From Paramacrobiotus metropolitanus (lineage: Eukaryota > Tardigrada > Eutardigrada > Parachela > Macrobiotidae): 64,000 nt of DNA. Positions 4,435 through 29,216 of the stretch are shown here, one piece after another. Made by a program: the position numbers and the translations under genes. A model generated the notes under the pieces. It searched no databases and was not told where the DNA came from. It saw only the letters and a program-made list of their open reading frames with translations. The stretch's first letter is position 1, and every line of letters starts with the position of its first letter. The stretch is from the NCBI RefSeq assembly GCF_019649055.1, contig NW_026570241.1, positions 620,001 through 684,000 on the forward strand. Direction: 5' to 3'.

Positions 4435-4818
4435 TGTCAGAGACCGCACACTCGAGGCGGTAGACACCTCTTGTGGCTTTGCTCTGTCGCCCGCCCGCGC
4501 ACGGCTACTCCATTCGTGCCGCGCTATTACGCTGCTCACTCAGCGTATACTTTGTCTACGCTGACCAATCAGCGCATTTCTGCACTCTTGGGGGCGTAGC
4601 CCAGCGCCTACGAGCGATACCATGCTTTACGGCATCAGCTGTTGCATACCTGCAGCACGCTGCATCATTACATTTTTACTGACTTGCGCGCTCGCAGCTA
4701 CTTTTCACAGCATACGCCGCATTGGCATTTCTGTGTTTGTTTGTGGTTGCTTTATTGTTATCACAATAAAGGGATATTTGCCCCATATTTTTGCTCTGCT
4801 TCCGTGTCCCATCTGACA
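4435..4818 (+). repeat. 5' LTR, 384 bp
   Basis: Begins TGTCAGA and ends TCTGACA, a perfect 7-bp inverted repeat with canonical TG/CA termini. It differs from the 3' LTR at one position only (T at 4792, C at 29190). A polyadenylation signal AATAAA lies at 4765-4770 inside an 8-bp hairpin (4751-4770, TTTATTGT/ACAATAAA). A TATA-like TATACT occurs around 4551 but promoter assignment is tentative. Confidence 0.95.
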
Positions 4819-4832
4819 TGGTAGCAGTATCG
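4819..4832 (+). other. Primer-binding site candidate, initiator tRNA-Met type
   Basis: TGGTAGCAG follows the LTR with no gap. It is complementary to the 3' end CTGCTACCA typical of animal initiator tRNA-Met. Only the first nine bases match that tRNA as I know it, so another tRNA with the same acceptor end is possible. Minus-strand DNA synthesis would start here. Confidence 0.6.
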
Positions 4833-5830
4833 TTCGGTTTTCTTTCCTGGAACCTCTGATCCCAGTGAAGGCACCATATCGGTCGAACTACGCTGATCGC
4901 CTATAAGTAGGCCAGCCATCCCGCGACCATCATCTCCTGCATCATACAGGTTTCATTGGAAACCTGCAGCGCGACGGATTATTCATACGGGTCAGGTTCA
5001 TAAGTGGACCTCCCGCAGCTTTGGCTCCCCGCGCAAAAACTGCGTTGGGTACGATCCTGCTGACCAAATAAGCGCCCTACCGGGTCGCGTTCATACGGGT
5101 CAGGCTCATAAGTGGGCCTCCCGCAGCTTTGGCTCCCGACGCAAAAACTGCGTTCGGTACGGTCCTGTCACACCATTACGCCCTATCGGGTGCGCTTGGC
5201 CCTCACGGAAGAAGGGGTGAAGTGGAACGACGGAGCAGCATTGTCTGGAGCGAATAACCGCCGGTAAGACCTGCTGTGACGCGTAGGGTTTCTCGGAGAA
5301 CTTTCGGAAATTTCGTGGTTTTTCGTAGAACCTTAACTTTAAAATTCGATAACTTTTGAACCTTACATCCGATCAGCCTAAAGATAGCTTTTTTGGATTC
5401 CTCGTAAAATTCTGTCCTAGAAAAATAGAACAGAACTCTCGAGAAAATTTTCTTTGATTTTTACCGAATTATCGGCGAAAAATAATCGCCATTTTGTCCA
5501 GCCGGAATTTTCGCGAAAAAGTCGCGTGACGTCAGCGTGGTTATTTTCCATAAAATTCTGACCAATCAGAACACGTGGGAAACTTCCCTGTGTTATAACA
5601 GTCGTAGTGACTCATACTTTTTTGCATTTTTGCTCACGGCACGCTACTCGTGACGTAGAGCTTTTTGCAAGACCATTTTGTACGTGACGTCACACTGGTC
5701 AGTAACGTAACATAGGGCCATAGGAAGCTAACGCTAAACCTGAGCTCTAGCGTACCTGACCAGCACCGACAGCGACCCAACCCGTTCCGGTCCGGACCAT
5801 AACCAAAGAAACCTTCTAAGTCCCAATACC
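4833..5830 (+). other. 5' leader of the retrotransposon
   Basis: About 1 kb of untranslated RNA before the gag AUG. It holds a two-copy tandem repeat of about 108 bp (4982-5089 and 5090-5197), each unit ending in CCCTAYCGGGT, then an AT-rich section. Packaging and dimerisation signals usually sit here in such elements; nothing specific can be assigned. The word CATAGGG at about 5711 recurs before ORF4. Confidence 0.7.
4982..5197 (+). repeat. 108-bp tandem duplication in the leader
   Basis: Two adjacent units start TTCATACGGGTCAGG at 4982 and 5090. They share GCAGCTTTGGCTCCC and GCAAAAACTGCGTT and differ at scattered bases, so the duplication is older than the present insertion. Confidence 0.85.
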
Positions 5831-6388
5831 ATGGGCCAAACTGAAAGCGCCTTGGCCAAGGTGATGCCATACACCAGCCATGAGCAACTCCAACGGAGAT
5901 TGCTCAGTCCTATGGACGGGCGCCAGCCAAACGAATACACTAGGCCTCTCGGAAAGAACTACGCCACGCGCCAACCAACGGGGCCCTACGGGCTCCGTAG
6001 CGCCAGGCAAACCAGTTCCGACCCAGAAGAGCCAAACTCGGCCGGCTCAACGAGTTCGGTCGAGGCCAAAGCCAGGCGGGACAAACAAATCCTGCCAGTC
6101 GACTTGGAGACAAGCGACGAAAGCTTGGACGCCACCCGGGACGACACATTCCAGGAGGCATCCGATGAGTTGTCCGAGGCTAACCAGCCTCAGGACAGCC
6201 AACCTGGCGCCGATGGGACGGCCCAGGCCAACAGTGTCCCTCGGGACTTGGCACAACAACCGGCCATACCTGGTCCGGGCCAAGTCCAACTTGAGGCGCC
6301 AACGGCGGCCACAAGTGAGGAAAGACACGCACCGATGGACCAGGGCCAAACAACTTGGCCCGGTCCAACCTTGACGTCCAGGATCTGA
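5831..6388 (+). CDS. gag: Gag N-terminal part with myristoylation-type start
   Basis: First AUG of the genomic RNA in a good context (ataccATGG). The 185-aa product starts MGQTESA, matching the N-myristoylation pattern MGxxxS; this would send Gag to membranes, as in retroviruses. The rest is hydrophilic, Ser/Gln/Pro/Glu-rich and without a known domain. The frame stops at TGA 6386-6388, overlapping by 70 nt the long gag frame that continues one base back. No X-XXY-YYZ slippery heptamer is present in the overlap. A degenerate 137-bp duplication (EAPTAA coded near 6293, EAPTVA near 6430) straddles the break and, not being a multiple of three, could have created it. In an intact element this is probably the N-terminus of one Gag protein. 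Confidence 0.75.
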   Translation: MGQTESALAKVMPYTSHEQLQRRLLSPMDGRQPNEYTRPLGKNYATRQPTGPYGLRSARQTSSDPEEPNSAGSTSSVEAKARRDKQILPVDLETSDESLDATRDDTFQEASDELSEANQPQDSQPGADGTAQANSVPRDLAQQPAIPGPGQVQLEAPTAATSEERHAPMDQGQTTWPGPTLTSRI

Positions 6389-9300
6389 TAACAAGTCCAA
6401 CCCTACCAGGTTCGGACCAGATCCAACCTGAGGCACCAACGGTGGCCAAAGGTGGACGCAAGGCCAAGGGCCAAGCCAAAAAGGCTGGTCCAAAGGCAGA
6501 CGACCAGGGCCAACAGCCCATGAGTCAGTCGCCCATCATGTTCGACATCGATGGCTCTACACAAACAACGCCATCGCCGACCAATGACGTCATCGGCGCG
6601 TCTGGCCCGTCCAAACCGGACCAAGAGCCATTTGTGGACCTGGCACAATTAAACAGGGCCACAGCCAGGATGGACCTTAATCAGCCCACCTGGGACACAC
6701 ACAGCGCCAGCGTCAGCCCGCCAAAGCTGATCCAGGCAACCCGGCCCGAGGAGATCGACGAAGTCGACCAACTTCGGACCACAGTACGGGACCTGACTAA
6801 ACAGCTGGCGGACATTGCAGAAGCAGCCCTGTCATCCGAACGTTGGATGCAGGACGAGATCTGCAAACACAAGGACCTCTCGTCCAAATCGGACGCAGAG
6901 GCTAAACGTGTCTCGGCCATACTGGCCCAGACCCAACTTGAGCTAACTCAGCTCAAGTTGTCACCATGTCCCAATGCTGAGCGAGACCAGCTCAACAGGA
7001 CAATCCACAGCCTAGAAATGGCTGTGGCGGGACTTGAAGCATTGCTCACCTCTACGAGGACTGAGCTGGCCAAAGCCAAGGACGACTTGACTGCGGCCCG
7101 GACCACCATTGACGAAACCGATTCTGAGGCGGACCGCCTTCAGAATGATAATGATCGTCTAACCGACGACATGGCCAACCTGCAGGACGAAATCAACCGC
7201 CTGCGGAACGGCTATAATCTTCTTTATGAGAGCCACCAAAATCTCATGAAGACGATTCAGCAAGGAGGACTGATGAGCCAAACGGTTCAACAGAAGGAGG
7301 CACAAAACGTGCAACTCCAACAACAGATTGTTGCCCTCCAGAGCCAGCTCAATACCGAAGCGACCATTCGGGCACAACTTGAGCAAAATAGCACCATTGG
7401 ACATCAAAACTTTGTCCAACTGGAGCAGGCCTTCGCCCAAGCCAAACAGGTGATCCAGGGCCAACAGGACCGGATCATTACATTGGAGGCCAACAACGCC
7501 GGCCTGGTCAAAGATTACCAAGCGGCCACCCAACGTATCACCGAACTCAACGAGGACCTGGAAAGGCTAAGCACGGAGAACGCCTGCTTAGATGCGGAAA
7601 AATCACATCTCGAGAACTTACACTCTGAGATGTCCGCGGAACCACCGTCCTACCATACCTTTCCGGACTCGGATACACAACGTCGACAAGAAAAAGTCGA
7701 CGAGGCTTTGCGGCAGGGCCAACGCTTCTACCGAGAGCCAGTGTATCACCAGCAAAACTATAATGTTAACATGGCTGTGGAAGGACCATCGGTTGGACAA
7801 CCCCCAACGGGGCCAACCATACCTGCGCCTCCCAGCCCGGTGGACCGAGGAACATCAACGGCGACAGTAACGCTGCCGCCACCACCAATCCCGGTCACCA
7901 CATCAGCCACTATTGGTCCAACGACCATAGTGACACCTGCAACGCAGACTCATCCGTCTGCGTCAAGCGGGCTAGCCTTTGACCCAAGCCAGGCGATACC
8001 CAGCCACAACTACTTTGGGTCAAGGCCACAATATCCGTCCTTGTATCCATCGATATTCCCGAACATGGACTTCAACTTTAGTCCACATCCGGCCACAAGC
8101 CAGGCTCAGACCAGCGGCATGGATCCGAACCGGACCAGCCTGCCGAGCCCAATGTTCGGACCATCGGCCACACAAGGACAGATGGGAGGCCAAAGTGGTA
8201 CACCAACGGTGCAACCACCATTAGTAGGCCAACTAAGCCTATTTGGCCCTCCTATCTCGGCGGCAGCCCAAACGGGCCAAGCTCAGCCACAGACGGGTCA
8301 AAATGTGCCCCAGGGCCAAACCATGCCCCAACCATTAGGCGGACCGCCAACAGCGGCCACGCTACCAGGACCAGCAGCCCAACCAGGCCAGGGCCAGAAT
8401 GCGCCCATGTTGGTCCAGCTCCCGAATGGAGCATATGCATGGATGTCCTCTAACGGAGCCATCCAGATCATACCGGGACAGCCAATGTTGGCTCAACCCC
8501 AGCAGGTGCCGCAGATACCACTGCAACAGCCAACACCTGCCCCGTCGCCACCGGCCAGTCCTACTCTCTCAACCAGAGAACAAATAAGGGAAATGGCCCA
8601 GGAGATGGGAAAAGCTACCGCCAAGGCTCAAGTCCGCACCGCGTTGCCAAAATTTGATGGCAACAAAACCATGGTGAAAGGATGGCTCGCTCAGGTCCGA
8701 CGGATCTGCAAGCAGTCGTCCGATCTGAACAAACCAGATCCGGACTTTATGAGCCGAATTTACATGGCCCTATCGGACCCTGTAAAGGAATGGTACACTG
8801 GCCAAGCCAATCGTGAAGACGAGGACGGCTGGCCAGTGGAGGAGTGGCTCCAAAAATTTGCCACTCGATATGGAGATGACAATCAGCAGGCAACTGCCAT
8901 GGGAGAAATTACCCATCGGTACTATCAACACTTGACCGAAACCCCTGAGCAGTACTATGACGCCATGCTGACTCTCCAGACGCGCGCAGGCCTGGACGAC
9001 ACAATGACCCTTCACTTCTTGCGAGAGAATGTGAAAGAGCCAGAACTGCGCCGCGCTCTGGATATCCGGATACCAAAGTCACCGGCAGAATTCCGGGACT
9101 ATGTCCGGCAGTATACAATGGGAAAGCCGGAGTACGAAGGGAAGGCAGGCCGCGGATACCCAACAATCCGAACGGCCATACAAACGCCACCAGCCCAAGT
9201 CGTACCACAACAACCGGCACTTTATCCCCCGCAGGCTACACAAGCCCAAATCGAGGCAACATATGCCGCCATCGCGGCCTTGAACTTAGCCTCCCCACAA

Positions 9301-9996
9301 CGTGGACCCACACCGCCCAACGGCGGTAGTGGCGGCTATGGCCAGGCCCGAAACCAGGGCAACTTTGGCTACAGCCAGGGCAACAGCGGCGGAGGACCAA
9401 AGGGCAAGTTCTCCAAGGGCCAGAACGCCAGCTTTAGCGGAAGCCAAGGCGGCAATAGCCCTGGGGGACAAAACCGAAGCCCAGGAGGCCAGAGTGGCCA
9501 ACGCCAGACTCTGAGCCCCGAAGAGGCCCGCAGACAAGAGGACGTGTACATCGACCGAGTCGAGCGCATGTTCGAACGATGGGCCAAAGATGGAAACATC
9601 ACCTGTAGCCACTGCCTGTGGGGAAACCACGCAACTGATGGCTGTGGCTACGCAAACAGGCCATACGGCGAAAATCCAAACCGGAAGTGGTATTTGGATT
9701 GGCGGAGCCGTTACACAAAGGGCTACCCTACCGGGTCAGCCAACCCTAACCGCTTCGGCCTAGTGCCACCCAAACAACCCAGACCACAACGTGGTAATGG
9801 GGGGAATGGCAGCCGAAGACAGTCCACCGGCTCAGGAAATGGGTCTGGTGGCGGCAACCGGCAGAATGGTCCAAAGCAGGGATACCAGACGCCAGCCAAT
9901 GAAAGGCCAGCGCTACCACCCATACCGGACCAGCTGGTAAAGCCAAACGGCGGAGGCGGCCCTAATCGGGCCAGCCCAACCGCGGGAAACGCTTAA
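6319..9996 (+). CDS. gag: Gag main part: coiled coil, capsid-like region, CCHC knuckle
   Basis: Structural protein of the retrotransposon particle, over 1,200 codons, several times a usual Gypsy Gag. The frame opens after TGA 6316-6318, has no early ATG (first at 6520) and is best read as the continuation of the preceding MGQTES frame. Domains: a long heptad-rich coiled coil at about nt 6750-7640; a Pro/Gln/Thr-rich linker (7640-8560); a retrotransposon-gag/capsid-like helical region (about 8640-9130, from LPKFDGNKTMVKGWL to FRDYVRQYTMGK); Gly/Asn/Gln-rich sequence; a zinc knuckle C-x2-C-x4-H-x4-C (CSHCLWGNHATDGC, about 9603-9644) for RNA binding; and a Gly/Arg-rich tail. It ends at TAA 9994-9996, four nucleotides after a -1 slippery heptamer. 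The coiled coil is an unusual addition and may drive assembly. Confidence 0.88.
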   Translation, partial: GKTRTDGPGPNNLARSNLDVQDLITSPTLPGSDQIQPEAPTVAKGGRKAKGQAKKAGPKADDQGQQPMSQSPIMFDIDGSTQTTPSPTNDVIGASGPSKPDQEPFVDLAQLNRATARMDLNQPTWDTHSASVSPPKLIQATRPEEIDEVDQLRTTVRDLTKQLADIAEAALSSERWMQDEICKHKDLSSKSDAEAKRVSAILAQTQLELTQLKLSPCPNAERDQLNRTIHSLEMAVAGLEALLTSTRTELAKAKDDLTAARTTIDETDSEADRLQNDNDRLTDDMANLQDEINRLRNGYNLLYESHQNLMKTIQQGGLMSQTVQQKEAQNVQLQQQIVALQSQLNTEATIRAQLEQNSTIGHQNFVQLEQAFAQAKQVIQGQQDRIITLEANNAGLVKDYQAATQRITELNEDLERLSTENACLDAEKSHLENLHSEMSAEPPSYHTFPDSDTQRRQEKVDEALRQGQRFYREPVYHQQNYNVNMAVEGPSVGQPPTGPTIPAPPSPVDRGTSTATVTLPPPPIPVTTSATIGPTTIVTPATQTHPSASSGLAFDPSQAIPSHNYFGSRPQYPSLYPSIFPNMDFNFSPHPATSQAQTSGMDPNRTSLPSPMFGPSATQGQMGGQSGTPTVQPPLVGQLSLFGPPISAAAQTGQAQPQTGQNVPQGQTMPQPLGGPPTAATLPGPAAQPGQGQNAPMLVQLPNGAYAWMSSNGAIQIIPGQPMLAQPQQVPQIPLQQPTPAPSPPASPTLSTREQIREMAQEMGKATAKAQVRTALPKFDGNKTMVKGWLAQVRRICKQSSDLNKPDPDFMSRIYMALSDPVKEWYTGQANREDEDGWPVEEWLQKFATRYGDDNQQATAMGEITHRYYQHLTETPEQYYDAMLTLQTRAGLDDTMTLHFLRENVKEPELRRALDIRIPKSPAEFRDYVRQYTMGKPEYEGKAGRGYPTIRTAIQTPPAQVVPQQPALYPPQATQAQIEATYAAIAALNLASPQRGPTPPNGGSGGYGQARNQGNFGYSQGNSGGGPKGKFSKGQNASFSGSQGGNSPGGQNRSPGGQSGQRQTLSPEEARRQEDVYIDRVERMFERWAKDGNITCSHCLWGNHATDGCGYANRPYGENPNRKWYLDWRSRYTKGYPTGSANPNRFGLVPPKQPRPQRGNGGNGSRRQSTGSGNGSGGGNRQNGPKQGYQTPANERPALPPIPDQLVKPNGGGGPNRASPTAGNA

Positions 9997-10027
9997 GGTC
10001 GGGGAGTATCGGCAACTCACCTGACCT
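9984..10027 (+). promoter_or_regulatory. -1 ribosomal frameshift signal between gag and pol
   Basis: GGGAAAC at 9984-9990 is a canonical X-XXY-YYZ heptamer in the gag frame (gcG GGA AAC), one codon before the gag stop. After a 5-nt spacer, 9996-10003 (AGGTCGGG) pairs with 10020-10027 (CCTGACCT) and inner GAGT with ACTC, giving about 12 bp with one bulge and a 7-nt loop. The -1 frame is open from 9966 straight into pol. The same heptamer works at retroviral gag-pro junctions such as SRV-1. Confidence 0.85.
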
Positions 10028-13000
10028 ACGACCGGAACCTAAACCGCCGGACATAACCCCTGTACAGTTACTAACCCACATGGATCCCAAACTAACCCAC
10101 ATGGCTCAACAGCCTACTAAGGGATCCAGGCTTTGCGCCAAACCAGCGTCTAAGCCACCTGGCTCTAAAAGTGATGCCAGGCCGACAGTCGCACTGCAGG
10201 CGACCAAGTCGATTTTCGGAGCCTCAACTAACCCCGAGGCCAACCGATCACCAAAACTCGGAGCCGCAGCTATTGCTAAGGCCAACCGATCACGTGGCAA
10301 AGCGAGACGTCGCACCACGAATATGACGTACCCTAAATCGGCGTCAGACACATCCTCCGACAGCGCAACGGAAGGATGGTCCGTACAAGATACGGACAGT
10401 GAGGTCGGATCCTTAAAAGATTGGACAGCCGAACCCCTTGAGGCGTCAAGTCCCCGTACCTGCTGGCCCCAGACCGGTGGACGACCCCTCGGCACCACAC
10501 CAACGGTGCGAACCATAAACAGCTCACGGACTTTCCTGAACACCAAAAATATGTTTTCGACCCTACGGGTAGCGGAAACATCACCGCAGGAAGAGTCTGT
10601 CCAACAGGAGCCTTCAGCACCTAAGTATGCTCCTGACGATCCAGGACCAGTGTCGCTAATCCCCATTGTACCGGTGATGCGGGAAGTGACAGTTGGCCTC
10701 GACGAGAATCGCAAACCGAAAACCGTTAGAGCATGGACACACAAAGTCCAAATTGGACCAGTCCACACGCTCGCTATGCTGGACACTGGAGCGGAGACAT
10801 CCCTCATCAGCCAGCAATTTTGCACCGCCAATGGCATCAAAACAGAGCCATTAGAACGGAACACCAAAATCCTTGGTGTTGGCGGCCAAACCGCCTTTGT
10901 GGTCTCCCACTGCTGCACCGTACCGGTGACATTGCAGGGATACAAGAGCCACCATACGTTCTTCGTCCAACCGACGTTAACGGACGTGCACGTATTACTT
11001 GGCTGTGACTATCTCCACTCCAAGTTTACATTCATCCTTAAGCCAAACGAAGAAATCGTTTGGGACGCGGTAAAGTCTATCCCGATACCAGAGGCACCGG
11101 GACCCGATGATGAAGTGAGAGTTAATCGGCTTGATCACCCGAAAAGTTCTCCTTCTACCTGCTGGGAATGCCTGGACACCATTGAAAGCCTCATATGGGA
11201 GCTGCGCGTCCATAACGCAATCGAGCGTTACATGACCCGATTTCGTGCAGGCATACTTAAGCCAAATCACGGGATAGTAAAGACTATCTCGATACCAGAG
11301 GCACCGGGCCAACGGCCGGTGCCTGACAGAGAAATTAAAGAGAAATTGGTCCAGCGATACAAGACTTGGTTTACGGGAGTAAGAAACTTCCTGGAATACC
11401 GCGCTGACCGACTCTTTGCCCTAGAAGAGGGCTGGCTACAAGAAAAAGGCGCACCACTACCGTGGCCGCAGTTAGCCGACCAATATGGACCATTCGCCCA
11501 AGAACTGGACGATTTGGTCCAAGAAGGAGCTTTGTGGGAGGACGAACGTCTAGCCCTCGTGTGGGAATACAGGGAGTACCACATGGAAGCCCCGAGGGCA
11601 CTCCAAACGATGTGCTCGGATCTCTTCCAAGAGATTATAACACTTCGAAGACAGGTGGCCCAACATTCGGACGTAACCGTCACTATTTGGCCAAAGTATG
11701 ACCTGAGCCTGACTAACGTCAGGACCATACCGGAACCATTGCCAGAAGCAGCACCGCACATGGCGACAAAAGTGCGCTTCAATGATGGCCCACACCCAGA
11801 ACAGGGAGGCCATCGAAGGGACACCAGCCAGAACGAGCAGGACCCTTCATCAGAGGAAGTCCAACTGACTTGTCCTCTATGTGGAGACGGCGTTGAAGCG
11901 GTAATACGGGCCATACAAACCCGTTCGACTCAACGGTGGGCAGGAGGCCGACCAGCCTCACCACTCCCTAACGGGAGCCGTCCAACCACTTTGGCGGAAC
12001 CGGACGAACCTGAGAAGCAGGCAATCGCAACCGGGACGCCAGAGATCCAAACAGTGGATCTCACAGCCAAACCGGCACTAACAGTGACCGGCGGCGAGCC
12101 AACCTCTAACGAGGACAATGGCCAGCCAAAACCTGAGCAGGACGATAAACCCGAGTCTACCGACTCGGACGTCCAAAGCTCAAGTGACTCACCGGATACG
12201 GACTCCGACAACCAATCGTCGGAGGAGTCAAGTGATGACGAAGAGGACACAGAAATTCTCCAACTCCGAGCCGAGGCACCGGTAATCCGCAAACTGCGGA
12301 CCGAACGTCCAATGGACTGCCTTAAGGAGGAGAGAGAAGTTGTCTTCGTCCACCAGCGGTACACTTTACCAGCATACTCAACCTGCTGGATCAAGGTCCG
12401 GTCCTATCGGACTATGGACCCGGGACGGCCAATCCACTTTAAGTCGCTGAGACGACCACACCGCTTGGTCTTACCGATCGAAGCGGAGGTCCAAACTCGA
12501 CATGGCGAACATGCGTGGATTCAGGTCCAAAACAAGTCCCTGAGAGACCAAATCCTCCGTAAAGGTGCAAAGATTGGCCATATGTACTACAGTGACATAT
12601 ACGAGCCAGACATCAAGGAGGATGGAGTAGATGGGTCCATTCCCAATGCCGACGCCTTACCATGGACAAAAGTGGCAGGGAATAATCCAAACCGGTACCG
12701 CACCATTAATGACCATGCTATGGTCCGGGCAACTGCAAAAGTGGAACTCCCACCGGAGTCCATAACCCCGGTCCAAGTTAGCATCGACTTTCCCGTCGAC
12801 CCGAGACAGAAACTTATGTACCTCGGAAGCCAAGACACCAAACGGAGTCTGGCCATGCTCGACGGACCAGTCCAGCATAATGGCACTAGTTTCACCATAC
12901 TGGTGTCAAACTACTCCAAAGAGCCCCATATACTCCGGAAAGGAGTCAACATGGGCCAAGTGGAGCCATACGAGGAAATCTCGGATGAAGATTACGCCAA

Positions 13001-20000: not shown

Positions 20001-23000
20001 AGCAGCATAGAAGTCCCCCAGCAGGACGTCGAAATGGACGTGAGCCTGCCCGACAATACCCTTGAGCTTTTATCGCAAAAGCCGATTGAAACTGAGTCGA
20101 CACCAGTCCAACTGGCTGGTGAACCGACAAGTCCAATGACTGTTGATGCGCCAACGGCGTCATCACAGCCCACACTGAAGCCAATCGAAGGCGACACATC
20201 AAGTGGTACGCTCATTGTCCGATCAACGGACAGGAAATCGACAGGAGGAAGGCCAGAACCAGCCACTCCTGCCACAACGAGCGGTCCACAGTCGCCCAGG
20301 TTCAAGAAGAAGAAGAGGACTCCCCCAGAAGCAGAAGAGCCTCCTTCGCAGCGGTCACTCCCACCTTGGGGAGGACCGCGGGAAAACCTGGAACTTAACC
20401 GTCCAACCAGGTCCACCCTACCAGCGTGGAGTGGCCCGCCAGCGGACTTAGACGTTCCTGGCCCTACCAGGCCTGGCCCGTCAATCCTTAAACCGAAGAA
20501 GGCGGAACCACCGACTCTGACACTTCGTGGTCTGACGACCAAGAAGAAGAAGTCGCCGCCAAAGAACTTTCCTGGCAAGGGACATGTGCTTTCACCACCG
20601 GAAGCGCCGAAGATCCCGTCAGGAACAATTCAGCCATTGCGGGACGAACCTCCAACGAGGCATCGTATCCGATTGACTCAAACAGAGTCATGGGATGACC
20701 CGCATAACCGGGCTGTTAGCGAGATCATAGAAGTTGATCTTCGCTTAAATCTGACCGAAGAGGACATGCGCCAGCGCCTACGCGCCGGCGATCCGGCATT
20801 AACGGACCATGAGATTGACCGCATCAACCGAGGCTGTCAGTTGTTGGTCCAGGAGCGCACAATCCTCATCAGAAAACTGATGGCCATGCGGAGCAAAAGC
20901 CAGGCCCTTCGCCAACGCAAGCTGCCTAGCGAAATCATTGAGCATGCCATCTACATACGAGGTCCACACATTGACCCAAGAGCATGGACCGTTGAACCAC
21001 GCCCAAGACCAGGCCAGCCAGTGGAAGACCAACTCCCACCGGAAGAGGCAGAAAGTGAGGACGAACGTCCTCAGATGCCAGCGGCCTTCTGGGGCGTCAT
21101 GTCCAGTGAAGAGTCGGAGAACGAATCGGACTTGGACGAAAATGTCCAAAGGGCGCTATATGAGACCAGTCAGGTCCGGCCACCTTCAACGAAGGAATCG
21201 CCACGCCGTAGCCGATCTCCATCCAAAAGGACTTCTCCTGGACGCGCCACATCAACTCCGGCGCGAATGCCCAGCATGCCGGCCATCGAACCGGCGCCCG
21301 CCAGGTTCACACCGAGCCGGCCAGGCAAGTCCCCGACCAAAGAGAGGATGGACACCACACCTCCTCAGCAGCAAACCATGACCATTACTGTGGAACGAAT
21401 CGCAGCACCTACGGTGTCTGCAGGTTCATCACTTGAGCCAGTAACGGTCACGGTTAGGACCCCTGCACCAGAGGCCGCAGAATCGGCCAGACTGACGGTG
21501 CAGATAACCCCGGCTATCTCGGACCAAGAAGTGGAAGCCGACGCGGCCTTAATGCCTATGAGTGCTCTCACTCCTATCGAGCAGAGACACTTACTGATTC
21601 ACGCTGACCATAATGAGCGCCGGCAATATCCATTCCTGCTCACAAAGAGACAGGAGGCCAAGGAGCAGAATCGTACGGAAGAGTACGATATGATCACGGA
21701 AATGCTCCGGTCCTTGGTCCTACGGATGATAGACGATTACCGGCGCCGCAGCAACCAAAATGCCTTCCCTCCACCGGGGGAAGACCTAAGAATGGCCGAA
21801 GCCCTGTCGTCAAACGCCCCACCAACCGTGGTACCGCCAAAGACACAGGCACCTGCAGCTTCTGAGCCAATGGATACTTCCCCGTCCGGACCTGTGCCTG
21901 TACAGCCAGACACGATCCGACAGGAGGAGCCACCGAAGGCCACTTCGTCGGCGCAAGATTCGACAGGCCAAAGCCAGTCCGGAACAGGGCCAACGGCCGC
22001 TGCTCCGATAATACTGACGAACATGCCTGCCAGCGTCGATGATATACCTTTTGGCCGTCCAATAACATTCCCCATAACCGGGACACTGGATAACTTGGCA
22101 CTTGGCATGGGTGTCATCCACTCAGCTAACTCCCAACGGAGTAAGCAGCCAAGGAAAGCCAAGAACCCAGAGAGGGCCAAACCACCCTCTCGTCCAACTT
22201 CTCCACAACCGAGGGCCAAACCAGCCACTCGACCAAATTCCCCTCAACCGAGCGGAAGTCAGGCGGCCACACCCCGGCCAACGGCTAATCCAGAGGCCGA
22301 AAGGAACCGCCAAAAGAAGCAAGCGGCCAAAGATAAGAAAAAAGAGGCCAAGATCGCCCAGCTAGAGAAACGGCTGTCAGGCGATGAAGATGTCCAAGTC
22401 CTATCGGACAGTCCAGATAAACCAGCGGAGCCCACACCAGATCGCTCACGGCGGGACGAGGAGCACGAACCACACTTCAGGGCAGAACCAGCCTCAGAAG
22501 AAGTGATGCTTCCCTCGCCCTGGGACGACGAGGCCGAGCTACCACAACCTGGACCGGAAGCCACACATATAGAGATCCCAGCGGATCACTATATACGATT
22601 AACCGTGGCAGCCGCCAGGGCCATGAGGCGCGCAACAGGACGAGACATGTACCAATGCCTCGTCTGCGTTCTCAGAGCTCGCCTGAAATATTCAGAGGAA
22701 TACCAAGGCCTACCGCCGGCGGACCGTGTACTAACGGCACCCTTTATGCGGCGGATGGTATCTCGCATTCTGGACATGGGACTTCTGGTCCGCACACACC
22801 GTGATTGGACCAGCCTGATGGAATTGCACGTGCCCCATCGGCCAGCGGGACTTTCCCGTACCAGGGACCTCCCTTTCCATCAGATATGCAGGACCATCGC
22901 TTACCTGCACAATCCAAGAGGTTCCAACCTGACCGACATCGCCAGGACACTCAACGCTCTCTACTACTATGGAGAGGAGAACCTGGACAAGCTCACTACC

Positions 23001-24662
23001 AGCTTGGCTGATGAGCTAATCGCGCTGGTCAGGGAAGGAACTTTGGAGACGACCAATGCACACCGGGCGGAGCCAATTCGCTTCACCATTCCGGGATTTA
23101 TCCCACAGAAGACCCAACGGTCTCTGTACGTGTCACATGACGTTGACACAAAATGGGATCCGGACCGAAAGAAAGCGGTTGGACCGCCAAAGGACAAGCT
23201 GACCGGCAGAGCCAAGCAGGCTTACTTGATCTCCCAAGAGGCCAAACTGCCTGGTCCAAAGAACTTGCCGGCCGAAAAGCCTCCTCGACCATCGGTCACA
23301 AGGAGAGAAAGGGTCGCACGGCAAGAAGCTGAAGAAGAGAGGCGCGAGGCCGGAATCCGGCCCGTGCCAAGGGACACCGTGTCACTGCCAAACGCAGCTG
23401 GCCAGTCCAGACCTCCTTCACCAGCCCCATCAGCCACGTCTACAAAGAGTCGAAAGACTACGGCCAAAAAGGCCACGGCCACAAAGAAGGGCGGGGATAA
23501 AGGATACCCGCCACTGGGGCAAGATGTATCGGACTCTGAGGACTCCAAACCGGAGGACTCAGAGGAGGAACAAGAAGAGGAACCGGACCAGGACCAAACC
23601 ATGGAATCCCAAAGGTCCGACTCAGATGACGATGATGACCAGAGCCCTGGCAAACTGACCATGGACGTCCCACCGGACCATGATATGGAAATCCCACCCG
23701 GTGACGAAAACCGGCCACCCAACGGTGACCAGGACATGGAGGACCAGGGCAGCGCAGAAAACGCTGGTCAAGACCAAAGCGGCGCAGAAGGCGCCGATCG
23801 GGAAAGTCAGGCCAGCATAGAAGACGCTGAGCCAAGTGGCAGCGGCGCACAGCCCTACCGGGACAGAGTGCGAGACTCCACCTCACCAGAATCAAATGAC
23901 GGTGAGATCCATTGGACTTTACCCGACCCATGCCCGGCCAAACCGCGCATCGATTATGTGCCGCCACCGAGAACCTTGGTGGCGAGGAAATGGCCCGGCA
24001 GAGATCCTTCAAAGAAGCCGAAGATCTCCAATACGGACGAGACGTGGGCGTACATCAAGGCGGCCTTAAAGGCGTTGTCCCAAACGGGTACAACCCTTGC
24101 TACAGGAGGCTTGGCCTTCCAACTTATCCAGAAATGGAATGGCCCACCAGTCACAAAGTCCAAGGTGATGAAATACATCCGAATGGCCTACGAACAAGGA
24201 GCCGTTCTCCGGACCCATCTGCCTAACATGCAGATGTTTTACACGTTCCCACCGGAAAGACGTGATGATGCGCCTCAAGGCTACTGGGAATGGCGAAATG
24301 CCATCTTGGCGGTACTAACCACCACGCAACATCCCTTGGGCCTGACAAGAGGCGAAATGACCAACCAACTCCTTGGACGATACAACGTCCAAATCTCGAC
24401 GTACGATCCCCAGCTGAGTGACGGGAATGAATATCCCTCTAGTCGCCCTAACGGGTTGTACTATCTCAGCGAGGACGTACGATACGTCGTCAAGAAGATG
24501 CTACGCGAAGGCTGGCTCGAACAGACCGTTGACGAGCCAGAAGCGCAGCAACGGTACCGGATGAAAAATAACCCACCGGACCGGTATGGCCCTCGTCCCA
24601 CTGAATCCGCCTCCTTGGCCTCAACCAAGCCCAAGAAGAAGCGGCGCACTTACCACCAGTGA
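17001..24662 (+). CDS. ORF3: giant accessory protein, about 2,553 aa, function unknown
   Basis: One uninterrupted frame of 7.66 kb; start taken at ATG 17001 (a second ATG, MEGRRR, is 21 nt on). I do not recognise the family. The N-terminus is Arg/Ser- then Pro/Tyr/Gly-rich. About five degenerate 60-residue helical units follow (near 18154-18340, 18670-18850, 19530-19680, 20750-20930, 21570-21750), for example IILDQDEFRRLAHDLSEEI and VALDLEFQRVLEYITRI. The C-terminal third has four modules with a winged-helix or linker-histone-like rhythm (residues about 1863-1944, 1957-2033, 2347-2418, 2428-2523), each a helix pair, then a hydrophobic helix ending GxL, then a short beta-like end such as FYTFPP. 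Basic clusters KKKKR and a terminal PKKKRR look like nuclear localisation signals; an acidic stretch lies at about 23510-23650. No signal peptide or membrane segment. A nuclear, DNA- or RNA-binding role is inference only. Confidence 0.8.
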   Translation: MTAPHSTMEGRRRTDRSDDSDRSNRTHPYSRPESRSGGSSTRSSNRLPSVQVPNIRANLTAEQLATMSVGPNPRADTPLPRVQPLPPRAIPPQLWPPGTFSDVTGLLVNAAVAGSQPSSTSGQTVRRYPHGRTGPPQPILYGGLPTTSANQPVFTTAAVGPTVTTTPVHTGPRPQFTPPPYYNPHYGYPPYPAPGPSNQPQPDPNQWRYPPPWMYPPGPYGYPPPYGGYGAYGQPPYSPPSAAQPDPTGQAPSDSSIEPPRVGPEAYHTPAPPEPQPSTSRPDGLRDYPLRVFVDGRLTVYNRPEEVPPELAAQLGLAELEPAAQPTPNPVSAVPSTCVISDMVEPISSPMPDDDEDEGDVQADPTTPPMRIESPTELLADGRTPLYQLQDNLKEVENAIQELEAMIRELDRRSPHYRETARRIILDQDEFRRLAHDLSEEIATRQAQNEIFPLHDQTGQALLAASRRLRDQLEQYRTERQLRTEGSAAPTRPPPAPSAPPPPLNPTVVVTTTTGGPSAPPVAQPTSTDEAMLTATGLEPREPASSPYDLRAYPDIPPLERELHAAELLEEAIRKAISSLKGTDVATIRRKVALDLEFQRVLEYITRIRRAMLRFMDKPLNTANDAPTLRDFRNRQYQLGLIDEALRRVLPKPRPGQPTRVGQTGLLTPTQSSTRQPAEELRMRVSRIMRISAERFAAGPALSRPASPSGTETDSDIEWFDMPDPIPVPGLTAPPDHSVAPGRQVQPRPGSLAPPPEIAERLALIGRAIVTPFRPAYTDDFPVFNQPDNINRPAPRTTQPAPRTNQPPQRTIRQQWDEDQAAADQRLRDADTEPVIMTAAQILSQRHLIQDAEDVYRRLYDRIRDLRPFDPETVRLTQQQQSLSQRVALLRELTPNSTMPTGQSLTVLDHTTRWIREFIEDYWKVQRPGPSTTARPSDFDPVNEWRPSPVPAPAPLALTYESVAPPSVGQPIPTELVQALTVPGPTSSQSVDAAIPATADSSIEVPQQDVEMDVSLPDNTLELLSQKPIETESTPVQLAGEPTSPMTVDAPTASSQPTLKPIEGDTSSGTLIVRSTDRKSTGGRPEPATPATTSGPQSPRFKKKKRTPPEAEEPPSQRSLPPWGGPRENLELNRPTRSTLPAWSGPPADLDVPGPTRPGPSILKPKKAEPPTLTLRGLTTKKKKSPPKNFPGKGHVLSPPEAPKIPSGTIQPLRDEPPTRHRIRLTQTESWDDPHNRAVSEIIEVDLRLNLTEEDMRQRLRAGDPALTDHEIDRINRGCQLLVQERTILIRKLMAMRSKSQALRQRKLPSEIIEHAIYIRGPHIDPRAWTVEPRPRPGQPVEDQLPPEEAESEDERPQMPAAFWGVMSSEESENESDLDENVQRALYETSQVRPPSTKESPRRSRSPSKRTSPGRATSTPARMPSMPAIEPAPARFTPSRPGKSPTKERMDTTPPQQQTMTITVERIAAPTVSAGSSLEPVTVTVRTPAPEAAESARLTVQITPAISDQEVEADAALMPMSALTPIEQRHLLIHADHNERRQYPFLLTKRQEAKEQNRTEEYDMITEMLRSLVLRMIDDYRRRSNQNAFPPPGEDLRMAEALSSNAPPTVVPPKTQAPAASEPMDTSPSGPVPVQPDTIRQEEPPKATSSAQDSTGQSQSGTGPTAAAPIILTNMPASVDDIPFGRPITFPITGTLDNLALGMGVIHSANSQRSKQPRKAKNPERAKPPSRPTSPQPRAKPATRPNSPQPSGSQAATPRPTANPEAERNRQKKQAAKDKKKEAKIAQLEKRLSGDEDVQVLSDSPDKPAEPTPDRSRRDEEHEPHFRAEPASEEVMLPSPWDDEAELPQPGPEATHIEIPADHYIRLTVAAARAMRRATGRDMYQCLVCVLRARLKYSEEYQGLPPADRVLTAPFMRRMVSRILDMGLLVRTHRDWTSLMELHVPHRPAGLSRTRDLPFHQICRTIAYLHNPRGSNLTDIARTLNALYYYGEENLDKLTTSLADELIALVREGTLETTNAHRAEPIRFTIPGFIPQKTQRSLYVSHDVDTKWDPDRKKAVGPPKDKLTGRAKQAYLISQEAKLPGPKNLPAEKPPRPSVTRRERVARQEAEEERREAGIRPVPRDTVSLPNAAGQSRPPSPAPSATSTKSRKTTAKKATATKKGGDKGYPPLGQDVSDSEDSKPEDSEEEQEEEPDQDQTMESQRSDSDDDDDQSPGKLTMDVPPDHDMEIPPGDENRPPNGDQDMEDQGSAENAGQDQSGAEGADRESQASIEDAEPSGSGAQPYRDRVRDSTSPESNDGEIHWTLPDPCPAKPRIDYVPPPRTLVARKWPGRDPSKKPKISNTDETWAYIKAALKALSQTGTTLATGGLAFQLIQKWNGPPVTKSKVMKYIRMAYEQGAVLRTHLPNMQMFYTFPPERRDDAPQGYWEWRNAILAVLTTTQHPLGLTRGEMTNQLLGRYNVQISTYDPQLSDGNEYPSSRPNGLYYLSEDVRYVVKKMLREGWLEQTVDEPEAQQRYRMKNNPPDRYGPRPTESASLASTKPKKKRRTYHQ

Positions 24663-24850
24663 CCTAGGCGTAGAATTCGCATAGGGTCTAGGGGGTGATC
24701 CCGATATAATTCACCGGGCAAGAAAAGCCTAGTTAACAAATCACATGTAAAACATAGGGACGTAAACATAGGGCGTAATTATCATAGGGACCTGTCATAA
24801 AAAGCGGACTTAACCTTATTCTGCAAGTTTCATTTCTGTTACCACAGAGA
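24663..24850 (+). other. ORF3-ORF4 spacer with CATAGGG repeats
   Basis: The 7-mer CATAGGG occurs four times (from about 24681, 24758, 24770 and 24783), and also in the 5' leader near 5711. Spacing is irregular. A regulatory or RNA-processing role is possible but unsupported. Confidence 0.5.
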
Positions 24851-25039
24851 ATGGGACTTACACCGCAGCAGAAATATGAACCGCGATGCTCGGACTGCAG
24901 ACGCAACAGCGGCGATAACTTGACTTATCCTCACCGCCGGGACAATTCCTCACGGAGTTGTTCCCCTGCGCATACCACCTGCGACCGGGCTTTCGCGACG
25001 AGAATGACCGAGCCTACTGCTTCTACTTGGAAGTGGTGA
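24851..25039 (+). CDS. Short frame at the start of ORF4 (MGLTPQQ)
   Basis: ATG 24851 opens a 62-codon frame beginning MGLTPQQKYEPRCSDC. The start resembles that of Gag (MG-x-T). It overlaps the main ORF4 frame, which lies one base back and has no early ATG. The CSDC pair here and the later Cys/His (FPCAYHL) in the main frame could be parts of one zinc-binding fold, implying the two frames belong together and a base is missing near 24919-24960. Past that point this frame looks like a shadow. Confidence 0.4.
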   Translation: MGLTPQQKYEPRCSDCRRNSGDNLTYPHRRDNSSRSCSPAHTTCDRAFATRMTEPTASTWKW

Positions 25040-26796
25040 GAGGCAACTTTGACGCGTACTGCCACATGACCAGCCGCGATGGAAGCCACTTGTTTCCCCT
25101 ACTGAGGGACCATGAGCAGATAGAGATCTACGATCTCTATATGCAACGCAGTGGCGCCCGACAACCTGGCTGGAGCAGCACCGGAACTCCGATTCCTCCA
25201 CTCAGCCAATCGGCCAGAGACAAAAAGGAGGAACGTGACCGAGAACGTCGAGCTCGTCACACGGGCTCCGACCAGTCCTCAGGGCGTGGCCCAACGGCCG
25301 CCCCGAGCAATTACGCACACCAGTCACATCCACAGCGGCCAGCATCAGGCTCTCGTTCCCACGGATACGAGTTGCCTATACCTATGGAATACAACCAGAT
25401 CCTGGAAAACATCAACAAAGCCATGGTTGACCAGGTGGCCAAACAGCTGATGGAAGGTGGATTGCTGGATGCCATAAAAGGCCAATATCAGCCAGCGCCG
25501 TCGGCACCGCTACCGCGGAAGCCAGATGACTTACGTCATCAGATTCAGAGCCGCAACCAGGGCCAACCTGGCCGCCAAAGTCGTGGCCAGCCCGAGGAGC
25601 GCCAAACGCGCACATCACCCGGAAAACGGAGCGAGGCGGAGTCCAGCCTGGTTGTCGCTCAGACCACCAAGCGACTAGACAGAAATGTCAGCTCGGTGGC
25701 CCATAACATCAGCATCCAGATCCCGATGGAGACAGAGTCCGCACCGCCGTCATCGGACCCACCGGCCCGACAAGACGCAAGCGTTAGTGCTACGGACTTT
25801 GATCCTTATAAATATGCCGAGGACCAAGGCATCAATATCCGACCACTTCCCCACCGGGAGGTGACGGATTACATTATGAGAGCCATCCCATACCCCAGGG
25901 ACAGATGGGCTCAAGTCAACGCCATGGTCCAAAACCTGCAAACTTTCGTCACCCGGTCCGGACTCGAAACGGAAATGCAGAAAAAGGAGTGGCCCCGTGA
26001 CTTCAGCATGGCGGAACACACCGAAAATCGTGAGGGCTACCCTATGGTCCGTGATAATGCTCTATCGAGCATTACGGACGTGAACTTACTCGGACAGCCC
26101 ATCACTAGACCGGACTGGAATGACCTGTGCCAACTGCACATTAAGGACGACCAACTTGATGTCGTCAAATACCTGGCCCAGTTCGTCCTACCGGACGCGA
26201 ACGCCAGCTTCATAATGGCAGCCACCAGAGCTGCTATGGAAATTCCATGCAAACCGGTTGACCATAAGGATAACCCAGAAGTGCACGCTTACTCCTATAA
26301 CGGCATGATGATACGCATCTTTGCCGCCAGACTTGGACACCTACGGTGCCACTGGGAACTCGAAGTTGCCTACCGGCAGGGGAAAATCATTCCCCGATTA
26401 CTGACCCAAGTGGCCCTTCTCGGAAACCAGATCCACGAGGTCGAAGCGGGAGTCAAAATTCAGAGCGCCCTGAACGTTTATAGGAGCCGCGCCAAAGATT
26501 ACCGCTATCGACAGCCAACGGACTTCGACGACGGTGCGGAAGCGTTCGTTAATCGAACGGCAACACGGAAACTTCCAACGAAGTTTCGTACTCAGCGATC
26601 CTCAACAGCATCGTCCGCACACGTCCAGACTCAGGCCGCACACTCTGGCCAAGAAGCTCAGCCGACCAGCGCCTCCAGCCAACCACGGGACAACCAGACC
26701 GAACAGGAACTGGCGGCCATGGAGGAAAGCGTCGTCGACCCGCTCAACCCTGGGCCAGGCGACGGCGACCAAGCCGGACAGGGAGGGCAGGAATAA
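24919..26796 (+). CDS. ORF4: accessory protein, about 600 aa, function unknown
   Basis: Open from 24919 (after TAA 24916-24918); first in-frame ATG only at 25066, although the sequence upstream (FPCAYHLRPGFRDENDR) already looks coding. I do not recognise the family. N-terminal part: compact and Cys/His/aromatic-rich. Middle: low-complexity Arg/Gln/Ser/Pro. C-terminal half (about 25790-26570): a globular, mostly helical region with motifs such as DWNDLCQLHIKDDQLDVVKY and SFIMAATRAAMEI. No signal peptide, transmembrane helix or fusion peptide, so it is not an envelope-type protein despite sitting where env lies in retroviruses. How it is translated is unclear: splicing, joining with the MGLTPQQ frame, or a non-AUG start. 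Confidence 0.7.
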   Translation, partial: LDLSSPPGQFLTELFPCAYHLRPGFRDENDRAYCFYLEVVRGNFDAYCHMTSRDGSHLFPLLRDHEQIEIYDLYMQRSGARQPGWSSTGTPIPPLSQSARDKKEERDRERRARHTGSDQSSGRGPTAAPSNYAHQSHPQRPASGSRSHGYELPIPMEYNQILENINKAMVDQVAKQLMEGGLLDAIKGQYQPAPSAPLPRKPDDLRHQIQSRNQGQPGRQSRGQPEERQTRTSPGKRSEAESSLVVAQTTKRLDRNVSSVAHNISIQIPMETESAPPSSDPPARQDASVSATDFDPYKYAEDQGINIRPLPHREVTDYIMRAIPYPRDRWAQVNAMVQNLQTFVTRSGLETEMQKKEWPRDFSMAEHTENREGYPMVRDNALSSITDVNLLGQPITRPDWNDLCQLHIKDDQLDVVKYLAQFVLPDANASFIMAATRAAMEIPCKPVDHKDNPEVHAYSYNGMMIRIFAARLGHLRCHWELEVAYRQGKIIPRLLTQVALLGNQIHEVEAGVKIQSALNVYRSRAKDYRYRQPTDFDDGAEAFVNRTATRKLPTKFRTQRSSTASSAHVQTQAAHSGQEAQPTSASSQPRDNQTEQELAAMEESVVDPLNPGPGDGDQAGQGGQE

Positions 26797-28832
26797 GCTA
26801 ACAGCCATTCCTGCATGTCGGCCCTAGAAGTGGACCGGCATCGGCTGGATCGGACTCGAACACCATGATGGGTACAATCTAACGGTTGTAGCCCTCGCCC
26901 AACAAACGTGGCTTACGGCCATGTATTGTCTACCTTACCGGACCTAAATCCCTGGATCTTAACCGGATTCCCCGGATTGGCTCTGGCTTAGCGGCTGGGA
27001 CCATGAATTTGGCTCGGCCATCCCAGACCATCCGACGGAGTCCACCGGACCGAACTTGGCGCGAGCTAAGTTCCCCGGCATGGAAAGGATCCAGCGCCCA
27101 GAAGGCGGCGACGGCCCGCATCGAAGTTGCGACAAACCGTGGATCAGCCTGGCCCGCATAGAAATTGCGACAAGCCACGGCCAAGGCCTGGCCCATAGAA
27201 ATTGGACCAGGCCCACTATGTGTCCAACGGACCATATGTGGCTCATGAGTCTAGTTGCCGTACTAGGCAACTGGGACAAATGAGTTGTGGGAGCCACATA
27301 GAAGTTGTGGTACGCCCACTTTGCATGCCATGTCCAACATCCTCACCATGGACCGCCCAGAGGCTCATCCAACAGATGCACCGCCCCGAGGCCAAACGAG
27401 GATGTCCCTAGTCAGAAGACCAACTCCTTTGTGGTAAACGCCTACCGGCGCCCACAACTTAATTTTTGGAGTTTGGCCAGGCCAATCTGATGTTTTCGTC
27501 AGAAGCCACTTAATTTTGTTATGGCCACGGTCTCAGGGAAATCGCCTATCCGACACGGTAACTTATCGGACATGGTTGCCACTTTGGCCCGTCCAACGAC
27601 GTGGCCCACCAAAAATCGACTAAGTCTTTTGGCCCGTCCAACGACGTGGCCCACCAAAAATCGACTAAGTCCACATCCGAGGGCCAAACCTGGCCATACA
27701 GGACCCCAAAGTCCCACACCAGCCGGAGGTGAGCCATATCACAATGGGACCTCGTATCCCGGCCTAGAGCATGTCAGAGACCGAGTTTGGACCGCCCTAA
27801 CGGGTTTGGTCCATCACACCACCTCGGTCCTGGGACTTAGAAAATTTTTCCATTGTGGCCCTCCTGGACTTAGAAGATTTTTGGCCCGAGGCGCATGACC
27901 AAACCAGCATGCAGGGCCAAACCCGACCAAAATGGACCACCTCAACGGGACTGGTCCAAAGCACCAATTTTGGCCACCGAGAAGGAATCCGACAGGACTC
28001 CCACTCCCGCCATACCTGGGACAACCCTAACGGGTCAGGTCCAACAGAGGCATCCCGGACCAAAGCATGGCCATCCTAACGGAATTGGTCCAAGCACATT
28101 AATTTGGTCACAAAGGCACCTCTCCTGTCCAGAGGCATCACTCTGGCCCATCATGGACCGCCCAACCGGGCTTGGTCCACCATACATTAACAAGGAAGGG
28201 GACAACTTGTCCTTGCGCATGCAACCGTGCCTTCCATATACCGCACCGCTGGATTTACTCCATTGGACCCCTGTGGACATCTCTGGGAACCGTCGCCCCG
28301 GATTCACAGGACCAGACCAATCCTACCGGATAAAGCGGACCGTTGACTAGGACCCCTGTGGACTCAAATGGCCCTGTGGTAAACCTAGTCGGAATAAGCC
28401 ATTTTTCGTCTAGTTTTTTAACCATACCTGGTTTTTCTAGACTTATTAACCAAAGAAATTGATGTTTTTATTTAGCCATTAACCAAAGGAATTGGCTTTG
28501 GGATCTCTAACTATGATCTTTACTCTAATTCTCACTGAAATTGTGATTTTTCTATTTCGATGTTTAACCAATGAGCCTTATAAACCTTTATTTTTTTACT
28601 TGTTCGACCAAAGCAAGCCTTCAACCACACTGGAACCCCCAGCAACCAGAGTGCACTCCAGATTTCGGCCGTTCGGTGCACTGCACCGCGGGTCTGGAGC
28701 GACCGACCCTACCGGGTTTAGAGACAAAGTGGCATCCGGCCCTACCGGGTATCGGATCCTGGCACCCTACCGGGTTGGCCAGGGGCAGAGTCGGAAGGTG
28801 CTCGCAGGAGCTCCCACTCCCGCCCAGAGGCA
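26797..28832 (+). other. 3' noncoding region of the retrotransposon
   Basis: Two kilobases without a long frame. It contains a 45-bp tandem repeat (27583-27670), degenerate units of about 40 bp with GCCCGCAT or GCCCATAG starts (27113-27213), and several copies of CCCTAMCGGG-type words (for example near 28022, 28706, 28741, 28764). Its wording (GGCCAAA, GGTCCAA, CTAACGG) is the same as in the coding regions. There is no good polypurine tract next to the 3' LTR, only AGAGG; the nearest purine-rich run ends about 35 nt upstream. Confidence 0.75.
27583..27670 (+). repeat. 45-bp tandem repeat, two units
   Basis: The unit TTTGGCCCGTCCAACGACG... ending CGACTAAGT occurs twice with a period of 45 bp and almost no divergence. 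Confidence 0.85.
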
Positions 28833-29216
28833 TGTCAGAGACCGCACACTCGAGGCGGTAGACACCTCTTGTGGCTTTGCTCTGTCGCCCGCCCGCGCAC
28901 GGCTACTCCATTCGTGCCGCGCTATTACGCTGCTCACTCAGCGTATACTTTGTCTACGCTGACCAATCAGCGCATTTCTGCACTCTTGGGGGCGTAGCCC
29001 AGCGCCTACGAGCGATACCATGCTTTACGGCATCAGCTGTTGCATACCTGCAGCACGCTGCATCATTACATTTTTACTGACTTGCGCGCTCGCAGCTACT
29101 TTTCACAGCATACGCCGCATTGGCATTTCTGTGTTTGTTTGTGGTTGCTTTATTGTTATCACAATAAAGGGATATTTGCCCCATATTTTCGCTCTGCTTC
29201 CGTGTCCCATCTGACA
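28833..29216 (+). repeat. 3' LTR, 384 bp
   Basis: Identical to the 5' LTR except for C at 29190. AATAAA is at 29163-29168 inside the same small hairpin. It is followed by GGCA, the right target-site duplication. Confidence 0.95.

Follow-up and report, generated by a model that had tools for sequence, protein, structure and literature searches.

A 24.8-kb Ty3/Gypsy-type element of the tardigrade Paramacrobiotus metropolitanus, with two accessory reading frames in one apparently spliced locus

ORGANIZATION OF THE ELEMENT

The window analyzed here, a 64,000-nucleotide stretch of the genome of the tardigrade Paramacrobiotus metropolitanus (contig NW_026570241.1, positions 620,001 to 684,000, assembly GCF_019649055.1), contains at positions 4435–29216 a single long terminal repeat (LTR) element of 24,782 bp. 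The element carries gag, a Ty3/Gypsy-type pol and two accessory open reading frames (ORFs), ORF4 and ORF5, all on the plus strand (Table 1). The original prediction, made from the sequence alone, saw here one young Ty3/Gypsy element of exceptional size with two novel-looking accessory genes, and most of this stands. The LTRs agree at 383 of their 384 positions (a single mismatch), which supports a young insertion; the target duplication on both sides, together with the order of the ORFs, bears out a single element; and Pfam finds in pol the order protease, reverse transcriptase (RT), RNase H, integrase that characterizes Ty3/Gypsy elements (Metaviridae). The size and the extra ORFs were confirmed, other copies carrying the ORFs at the same position and in the same order, and neither ORF5 nor the C-terminal third of ORF4 has recognizable relatives where we searched. 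The count of genes needs revision: both ORFs are present, but they appear to form one spliced locus rather than two separate genes.

THE PROBABLE SPLICED LOCUS

Splicing would join the first codons of ORF4, in frame, to ORF5, removing a GT-AG intron that holds nearly all of ORF4. The evidence comes from two other copies, C27 and C287, in which exactly this intron is missing. Their junctions (17153/24848 in window coordinates, the slash marking the joint) are identical to the base and in frame, and C287 carries the same join despite being only 74–80% identical to the window there. CAGGTA, the sequence at the intron donor, occurs just once in the whole element. Nine of the 10 ORF5 loci have TTTCTGTTACCACAG/AG at the acceptor, C27 being the exception; when the regions upstream of ORF5 are aligned, the same nine share TTTCATTTCTGTTACCACAG/AGAATGGG, and in C27 (L040) the first ORF4 codons run directly into AGAATGGG. 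C27 (G000:C27:930682-948346) is itself complete: it measures 17,665 bp, its LTRs are identical at 388 of 389 positions and CTTT flanks it on both sides. Since the intron lies downstream of pol, spliced RNA would lose neither LTR and would retain gag and pol, so that reverse transcription could still copy it.

Genome searches throughout this work scored the best candidates only, and the counts they yield are lower bounds. Among the best 40 of 67 candidates for the shared first exon, 34 are followed on the same strand by an ORF5 match. The distance, taken to the start of that match (ORF5 is partial in some copies), is 7.3–8.7 kb in 32 of the 34, 219 nt in C27 and 1,548 nt in C121. In a tree of ORF5 starts, C287 falls outside a clade of three (100/100) that unites C27 with C51, an unspliced copy, and with C24, in which part of ORF4 remains; this suggests two separate intron losses. 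Splicing followed by reverse transcription, probably at least twice, is the simplest account of the intron-less copies. C187, C121 and C24 were considered as further splice products and set aside; their deletions have ends other than 17153/24848.

Another splice, the first in order, probably links a donor in the leader to an acceptor immediately ahead of ORF4. The candidate donor motif recurs in all 13 leaders, and the region around it is poorly conserved (11 leaders). The candidate acceptor reads TCTC(A/G)TGACAG in seven of eight aligned sequences, and TCTCGCAACAG in C287.

Table 1. Features of the element (window coordinates; a slash marks a cut)
Feature	Position	Strand	Remarks
Target-site duplication GGCA	4431–4434 (left); 29217–29220 (right)		Read in flanks
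5' LTR	4435–4818	+	384 bp, ends TG...CA
Primer-binding site TGGTAGCAG	4819–4827	+	Adjoins 5' LTR; same nine bases in 13/13 5'-LTR loci
Candidate leader splice donor CCG/GTAAGA	5256–5271, cut after 5263	+	CGGTAAGAC in 13/13 leaders
N-terminal Gag, start MGQTESALAKV...	5831–6388	+	Start, with small variants, in 13/13 leaders
Main gag frame	6319–9996	+	Capsid-like core 8662–9123, common to family B; CCHC-like knuckle 9604–9645
pol, first part	9966–14228	+	Protease 10743–11018, RT 13362–13844, start of RNase H (Pfam)
Slippery heptamer GGGAAAC	9984–9990	+	Gag frame; predicted stem-loop follows; putative −1 shift into pol
pol, second part, other frame	14086–16755	+	Rest of RNase H, integrase H2C2 14962–15123 and core 15184–15477 (Pfam)
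AT-hook-like RGPGRPRK (presumed)	16300–16329	+	In second part of pol, after integrase
Candidate splice acceptor TCTCATGACAG	16997–17007	+	Before ORF4 start; motif conservation
ORF4	17001–24662	+	2,553 codons from 17001; ATG common to C287 at 17022
Exon common to ORF4 and putative spliced ORF5 message	17008–17153	+	Ends CAG/GTACCC; 5' end inferred
Putative GT-AG intron	17154–24847	+	7,694 nt; holds nearly all of ORF4; exactly absent in C27 and C287
ORF5 exon	24848–26796	+	Start MGLTPQQ...; window copy open from 24919; 576 codons from ATG 25066
45-bp tandem repeat	27583–27671	+	Repeated matches in several copies
Putative plus-strand priming site CGCCCAGAGGCA	28821–28832	+	Just before 3' LTR; by position only
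3' LTR	28833–29216	+	384 bp, ends TG...CA

ENDS, GAG AND POL

Paired LTRs, a short target duplication, a primer-binding site and a plus-strand priming site are all present, as in LTR retrotransposons generally. The primer-binding site, whose last base differs in C27, is the complement of CTGCTACCA, which we take to be the 3' end of initiator-methionine tRNA; a pattern for the host initiator tRNA was not found in a search, so this tRNA is the presumed primer. The plus-strand site is identical in 17 of 17 3'-LTR loci, and the same 12 bases recur in C42, a copy of the related family B described below. The site is unusual in that these bases are conserved, yet no long purine tract precedes the 3' LTR. 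Matches to the 45-bp repeat suggest that the number of units varies between copies. ORF6 (27874–28350) was rejected as a gene: stops or frame changes interrupt it in most of 16 other 3'-end loci, and its last 282 bases show no excess of third-position differences from the window (0.078, 0.054 and 0.079 by codon position).

No Pfam gag family matched the gag ORFs of the window. Read on from inside the 5' ORF, three of four other copies (C23, C176 and C81) continue into main gag in one frame, and the fourth, C6, has a frame break of its own. Gag starts with what we take to be a myristoylation-type motif, MGQTESALAKV. GGGAAAC is correctly placed relative to the gag frame in the window copy and in seven of eight fetched stretches, the eighth (C7) having missed the junction. 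Both the putative −1 frameshift signal and the myristoylation-type start are conserved; a pseudoknot after the heptamer is possible.

The window copy is not coding-intact. Its frame is broken in gag, where the 5' ORF (5831–6388) and the main ORF lie in different frames; in pol, inside RNase H (overlap 14086–14228); and in ORF5, whose 5' end is out of frame relative to other copies. Some of these breaks may be sequencing errors because the published host assembly is based on Oxford Nanopore (ONT) reads (PMC11191345). The frame that holds RT is open across 2,262 codons in C23.

Among solved structures the best match to the RT is that of Ty3 (E 4.6e-55), followed by 8r0s, an 'Enzymatic polyprotein' that we take to be from a caulimovirus (9.4e-38), and then by retroviruses (7.5e-30 and weaker). 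When the RT region was searched against proteins, three from P. metropolitanus came out on top (64–75% identity), with at most 45% for the others of the 120 listed; one of the three, P0001, has a match in the genome of the window that is 100% identical across 1,686 residues. In an RT tree of 121 rows, the window, a second copy (C25), P0001 and P0002 form one clade (Shimodaira–Hasegawa-like approximate likelihood ratio 100) on a long stem. P0003 was dropped for too short a match, the tree has no labelled reference clades, and the position of the tardigrade clade among the other rows is weakly placed. Pfam found no chromodomain, the mark of chromoviruses, after the integrase; the AT-hook-like motif stands there instead.

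COPIES AND FAMILIES

The LTR, searched against this genome, gave 237 candidates, of which the best 40 were scored, all at 91% identity or better. These include at least 10 same-strand pairs spaced 17.5–28.8 kb apart. Seven pairs whose flanks were read differ between their LTRs at 1, 1, 7, 0, 3, 2 and 5 positions. Exact 4-bp target duplications flank six of these seven, or seven of eight copies when C27 is included, the exception being C151 (CGTT versus AGGG). The original prediction proposed that a family sharing LTR, ORFs and order would mark one transmissible element, and that accessory ORFs confined to this copy would count against one. The first expectation held: ORF5 lies inside eight of the 10 LTR-paired copies and the C-terminal part of ORF4 inside nine. 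Nor are the ORFs confined to the window, as the 34 ORF5 matches behind 40 first exons attest; yet C187, C115 and C42 lack all or most of one or both. C187 (G000:C187:73226-90779) has no ORF4 C-terminal part and lacks most of both ORFs, and C115 retains a short remnant of ORF5. With identical LTRs 17.5 kb apart and an internal deletion that joins ORF4 codon 655 to ORF5 codon 519, C187 is possibly a non-autonomous form.

ORF5 has at least 84 matches in the genome (best 76 of 579 candidates scored) and the C-terminal part of ORF4 at least 63 (best 55 of 873). With the RT as query (best 103 of 1,682), at least 46 matches by hand count are 88% identical or more, and these make up family A, to which the window copy belongs; at least 57, also counted by hand, are 76–81% identical and make up family B. 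P0001 marks a third group, C, with at least 28 members (best 28 of 2,646). Family A is one of at least three related groups.

Family B has LTRs of 452 bp. Same-strand pairing gives lengths of 20,958 bp (C42), 20,918 bp (C163), 29,101 bp (C33) and 31,522 bp (C3); these come from LTR spacing, with contents checked for the 3' part of C42 only, and suggest elements of 21–31 kb. C42 has no ORF4; what follows its pol is an ORF5 homologue with 34% identity across 304 aligned residues (E 4e-28). C25, whose pol is nearly identical to that of C42 (96.9% over 1,640 bases), has broken ORFs there instead. One of these gave a match to ORF4 when a small set was searched (E 1.3e-9), and a further 71 residues match it at 41% (E 5e-5). 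The start of the homologue contains CCGCAG/GTACAT; by eye, this start and donor correspond to those of the window. A profile search of C25 with ORF5 and with the C-terminal part of ORF4 turned up no convincing match, and a 3' LTR was likewise not found. We considered C42 as a splice product of a C25-type element and rejected this, the join not being GT-AG. Beside C25 lie an integrase-core ORF (L052:5036-5797; Pfam rve, E 9e-14) and a 474-residue ORF with no Pfam match (L052:7198-8622), which leave an impression of Polinton/Maverick.

THE ACCESSORY PROTEINS

Both accessory ORFs are under purifying selection. The ratio of nonsynonymous to synonymous substitution rates (dN/dS) is 0.11–0.18 for ORF5 (22 of the 45 pairings that 10 copies allow, stops being present in two of the copies) and 0.13–0.18 for the C-terminal third of ORF4 (six pairs, four copies); for RT it is 0–0.014 (six pairs, four copies).

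A search of some 5.8 billion proteins, scoring about 8,000 candidates with the most words in common, returned nothing at E 0.001 for the whole of ORF5 or for residues 1700–2553 of ORF4; for the first two thirds of ORF4 the search was by Pfam alone. The PDB yielded nothing convincing for ORF5 or the ORF4 C-terminal third. Among viral contigs, ORF5 patterns gave nothing, and none of 20 stretches matching a pattern of the ORF4 C-terminal third was confirmed, in a search that may leave out near records. Single-sequence AlphaFold models are of very low confidence (mean predicted local distance difference test, pLDDT, 35.5 and 43.8). A LIM-domain protein that matched ORF5 in the PDB (E 0.05–0.08) and a BDV_P10 match of the family B ORF5 (0.012–0.02) were taken as chance. 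Two stretches of ORF4 that looked winged-helix-like by eye showed no mutual similarity when compared.

EXPRESSION AND POSSIBLE ROLES

If we read these features correctly, the genomic RNA would be translated into Gag and, by a −1 frameshift of which we see the signal and infer the use, into Gag-Pol. A message spliced from the leader donor to the acceptor before ORF4 would, on keeping the 7.7-kb intron, encode a very large ORF4 protein; spliced again, it would place the first ORF4 codons in frame with ORF5, as in the two intron-less copies. Reverse transcription of the intron-less RNA would then produce a shorter, 17.7-kb element such as C27. We put the probability that this proposal—the anatomy and splicing of a giant Ty3/Gypsy-type element with a retrovirus-like expression plan—is correct at about 0.8.

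Several observations weigh against it. Spliced copies are few, just C27 among the 34 scored exon-1/ORF5 pairs, plus C287, whose branch is long and whose place in the tree is unsure. Other internal deletions (C187, C121 and C24) fall in the same region, and C42 lost or lacks ORF4 by a junction other than the window-type splice. The evidence for the leader-to-ORF4 splice is conserved motifs, and splicing as a whole is read here from genomic copies alone. ORF5, moreover, has no fold or family link, the single-sequence models being uninformative.

Because removal of the intron leaves a template that can be copied, one of the two proteins might control the balance of splicing. We suggest tentatively, with the odds somewhat against us, that the element carries a splice switch after pol: the intron is kept for ORF4 and removed for ORF5, ORF5 or ORF4 sets the balance in the manner of Rev or of CERV (a protein of the nematode element Cer1), compact 17.7-kb forms are thrown off repeatedly, and the locus predates the separation of families A and B, both of which retained it. 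More doubtful, though it is the role we favour, is the assignment of parts in which ORF5 would have a nuclear or packaging role on intron-containing RNA, as CERV has for Cer1, and ORF4 would be a scaffold or a partner that binds RNA or chromatin. This role is drawn by analogy because the proteins have no convincing matches where searched and no membrane segment, and folding without an alignment was uninformative.

ORF4 and ORF5 might instead be structural, enlarging or stabilizing the particle so that it can package a 25-kb RNA. The genome is large, ORF4 is of great length and rich in proline (13.6% P), and purifying selection acts on both ORFs. However, shorter forms have inserted without a full ORF4 (C27 and C187), and C42 of family B has none, which packaging in trans could explain. 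ORF5, considered as a second capsid, has no detectable profile similarity to the capsid region of Gag in a two-row Gag alignment. On balance we think a structural role unlikely. Very unlikely is an envelope-like or membrane-fusion function for either protein, which would make the element an endogenous retrovirus or errantivirus: the highest 19-residue hydropathy means are 1.25 (ORF4) and 1.03 (ORF5), with no membrane-like segment in either, and for these two ORFs Pfam returned no family, envelope glycoproteins included, at E 0.5 or better.

That the ORFs are host genes recently captured by the window copy is hard to credit. The lack of relatives in the protein collection would fit, but the genome holds at least 84 ORF5 and 63 ORF4 matches, those between paired LTRs following pol in a constant order; the family B ORF5 homologue is 34% identical against about 80% for RT; and no single-copy, intron-bearing source gene was recognized among the ORF5 genome matches. 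Least credible is chance deletion as the origin of the C27 and C287 joins, for the internal deletions of C187, C121 and C24, which might suggest it, end elsewhere (with short shared sequence by eye at the joins of C187 and C121), whereas the C27 and C287 joins are base-identical, GT-AG and in frame in copies far apart in the tree.

ELSEWHERE IN THE WINDOW

Diverged 51-bp tandem repeats (17-codon units) occupy 31060–32700 and 40780–41400, about 9 kb apart, with stops in all three plus frames. Further stretches are shared at 30474/40362, 30675/40567 and 33048/41562, and the two regions are perhaps an old duplication. Another reverse transcriptase is weakly matched at 48222–48965 (RVT_1, E 7e-5, below the Pfam cut-off), adjoining ORFs at 47053–48063 and 48907–49908. 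Coding stretches for an Ig domain (43803–44645, E 2e-6) and an astacin protease (54675–55355, E 2e-37) are also present, and 1742–2041 repeats 54710–55009 at 78%.

COMPARISON WITH KNOWN SYSTEMS

Among the papers listed in searches of the open-licence literature on giant animal LTR elements and on tardigrade or Paramacrobiotus elements, none describes this element. A curation of elements in two other tardigrade species states that, to its authors' knowledge, the phylum had no earlier curated annotation (PMC11071193). To Tardigrada the present element adds a giant LTR element with two proteins that are under selection and have no recognizable relatives where searched.

The planarian Burro is likewise a giant Ty3/Gypsy-like animal element with unusual extra coding DNA. 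Its internal region reaches 25 kb, and its ORF1, a polyprotein of about 4,900–5,100 residues, combines parts of BIR, ankyrin and BCL2-like type with an Env-like region between gag and pol (PMC6431247). By description, the tardigrade element differs in that its extras come after pol, lack known domains and are apparently splice-linked, and in its 384-bp LTRs; Pfam families for BIR, ankyrin, BCL2-like and Env-like domains were absent from the ORFs we scanned. The plant Ogre elements devote much of their length to LTRs of 1.9–6.5 kb, unlike the 384-bp LTRs here. The extra ORF and the intron of Ogre also seem to be placed differently.

Complex retroviruses combine Rev-type regulation, myristoylated Gag, −1 frameshifting and 3' genes expressed from spliced RNA. 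The tardigrade element resembles them in its slippery GGGAAAC, its MGxxxS Gag start and, as proposed here, its 3' genes from spliced RNA; it differs in having no env and in that its nearest solved RT is Ty3's. Human L1 reportedly leaves retrocopies of spliced element RNA, the SpIREs. L1 is a non-LTR element, however, and the spliced tardigrade copy retains gag, pol and both LTRs. Genomic copies alone point to a large retained intron and to spliced RNA that re-enters the genome as a complete element. P. metropolitanus is kept in the laboratory, and the export and packaging of intron-containing RNA by a giant retroelement could be tested in an animal.

A further parallel is Cer1 of Caenorhabditis elegans. 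Its nuclear protein CERV, encoded by a spliced message in which exons one to three of five follow the gag frame, is required for export of the unspliced RNA (PMC10309623). Both are LTR elements with a non-Env accessory protein from spliced RNA (putatively so in the tardigrade), a likeness of description rather than of compared sequences; in the tardigrade element, by contrast, it is the beginning of ORF4 that serves as the shared exon.

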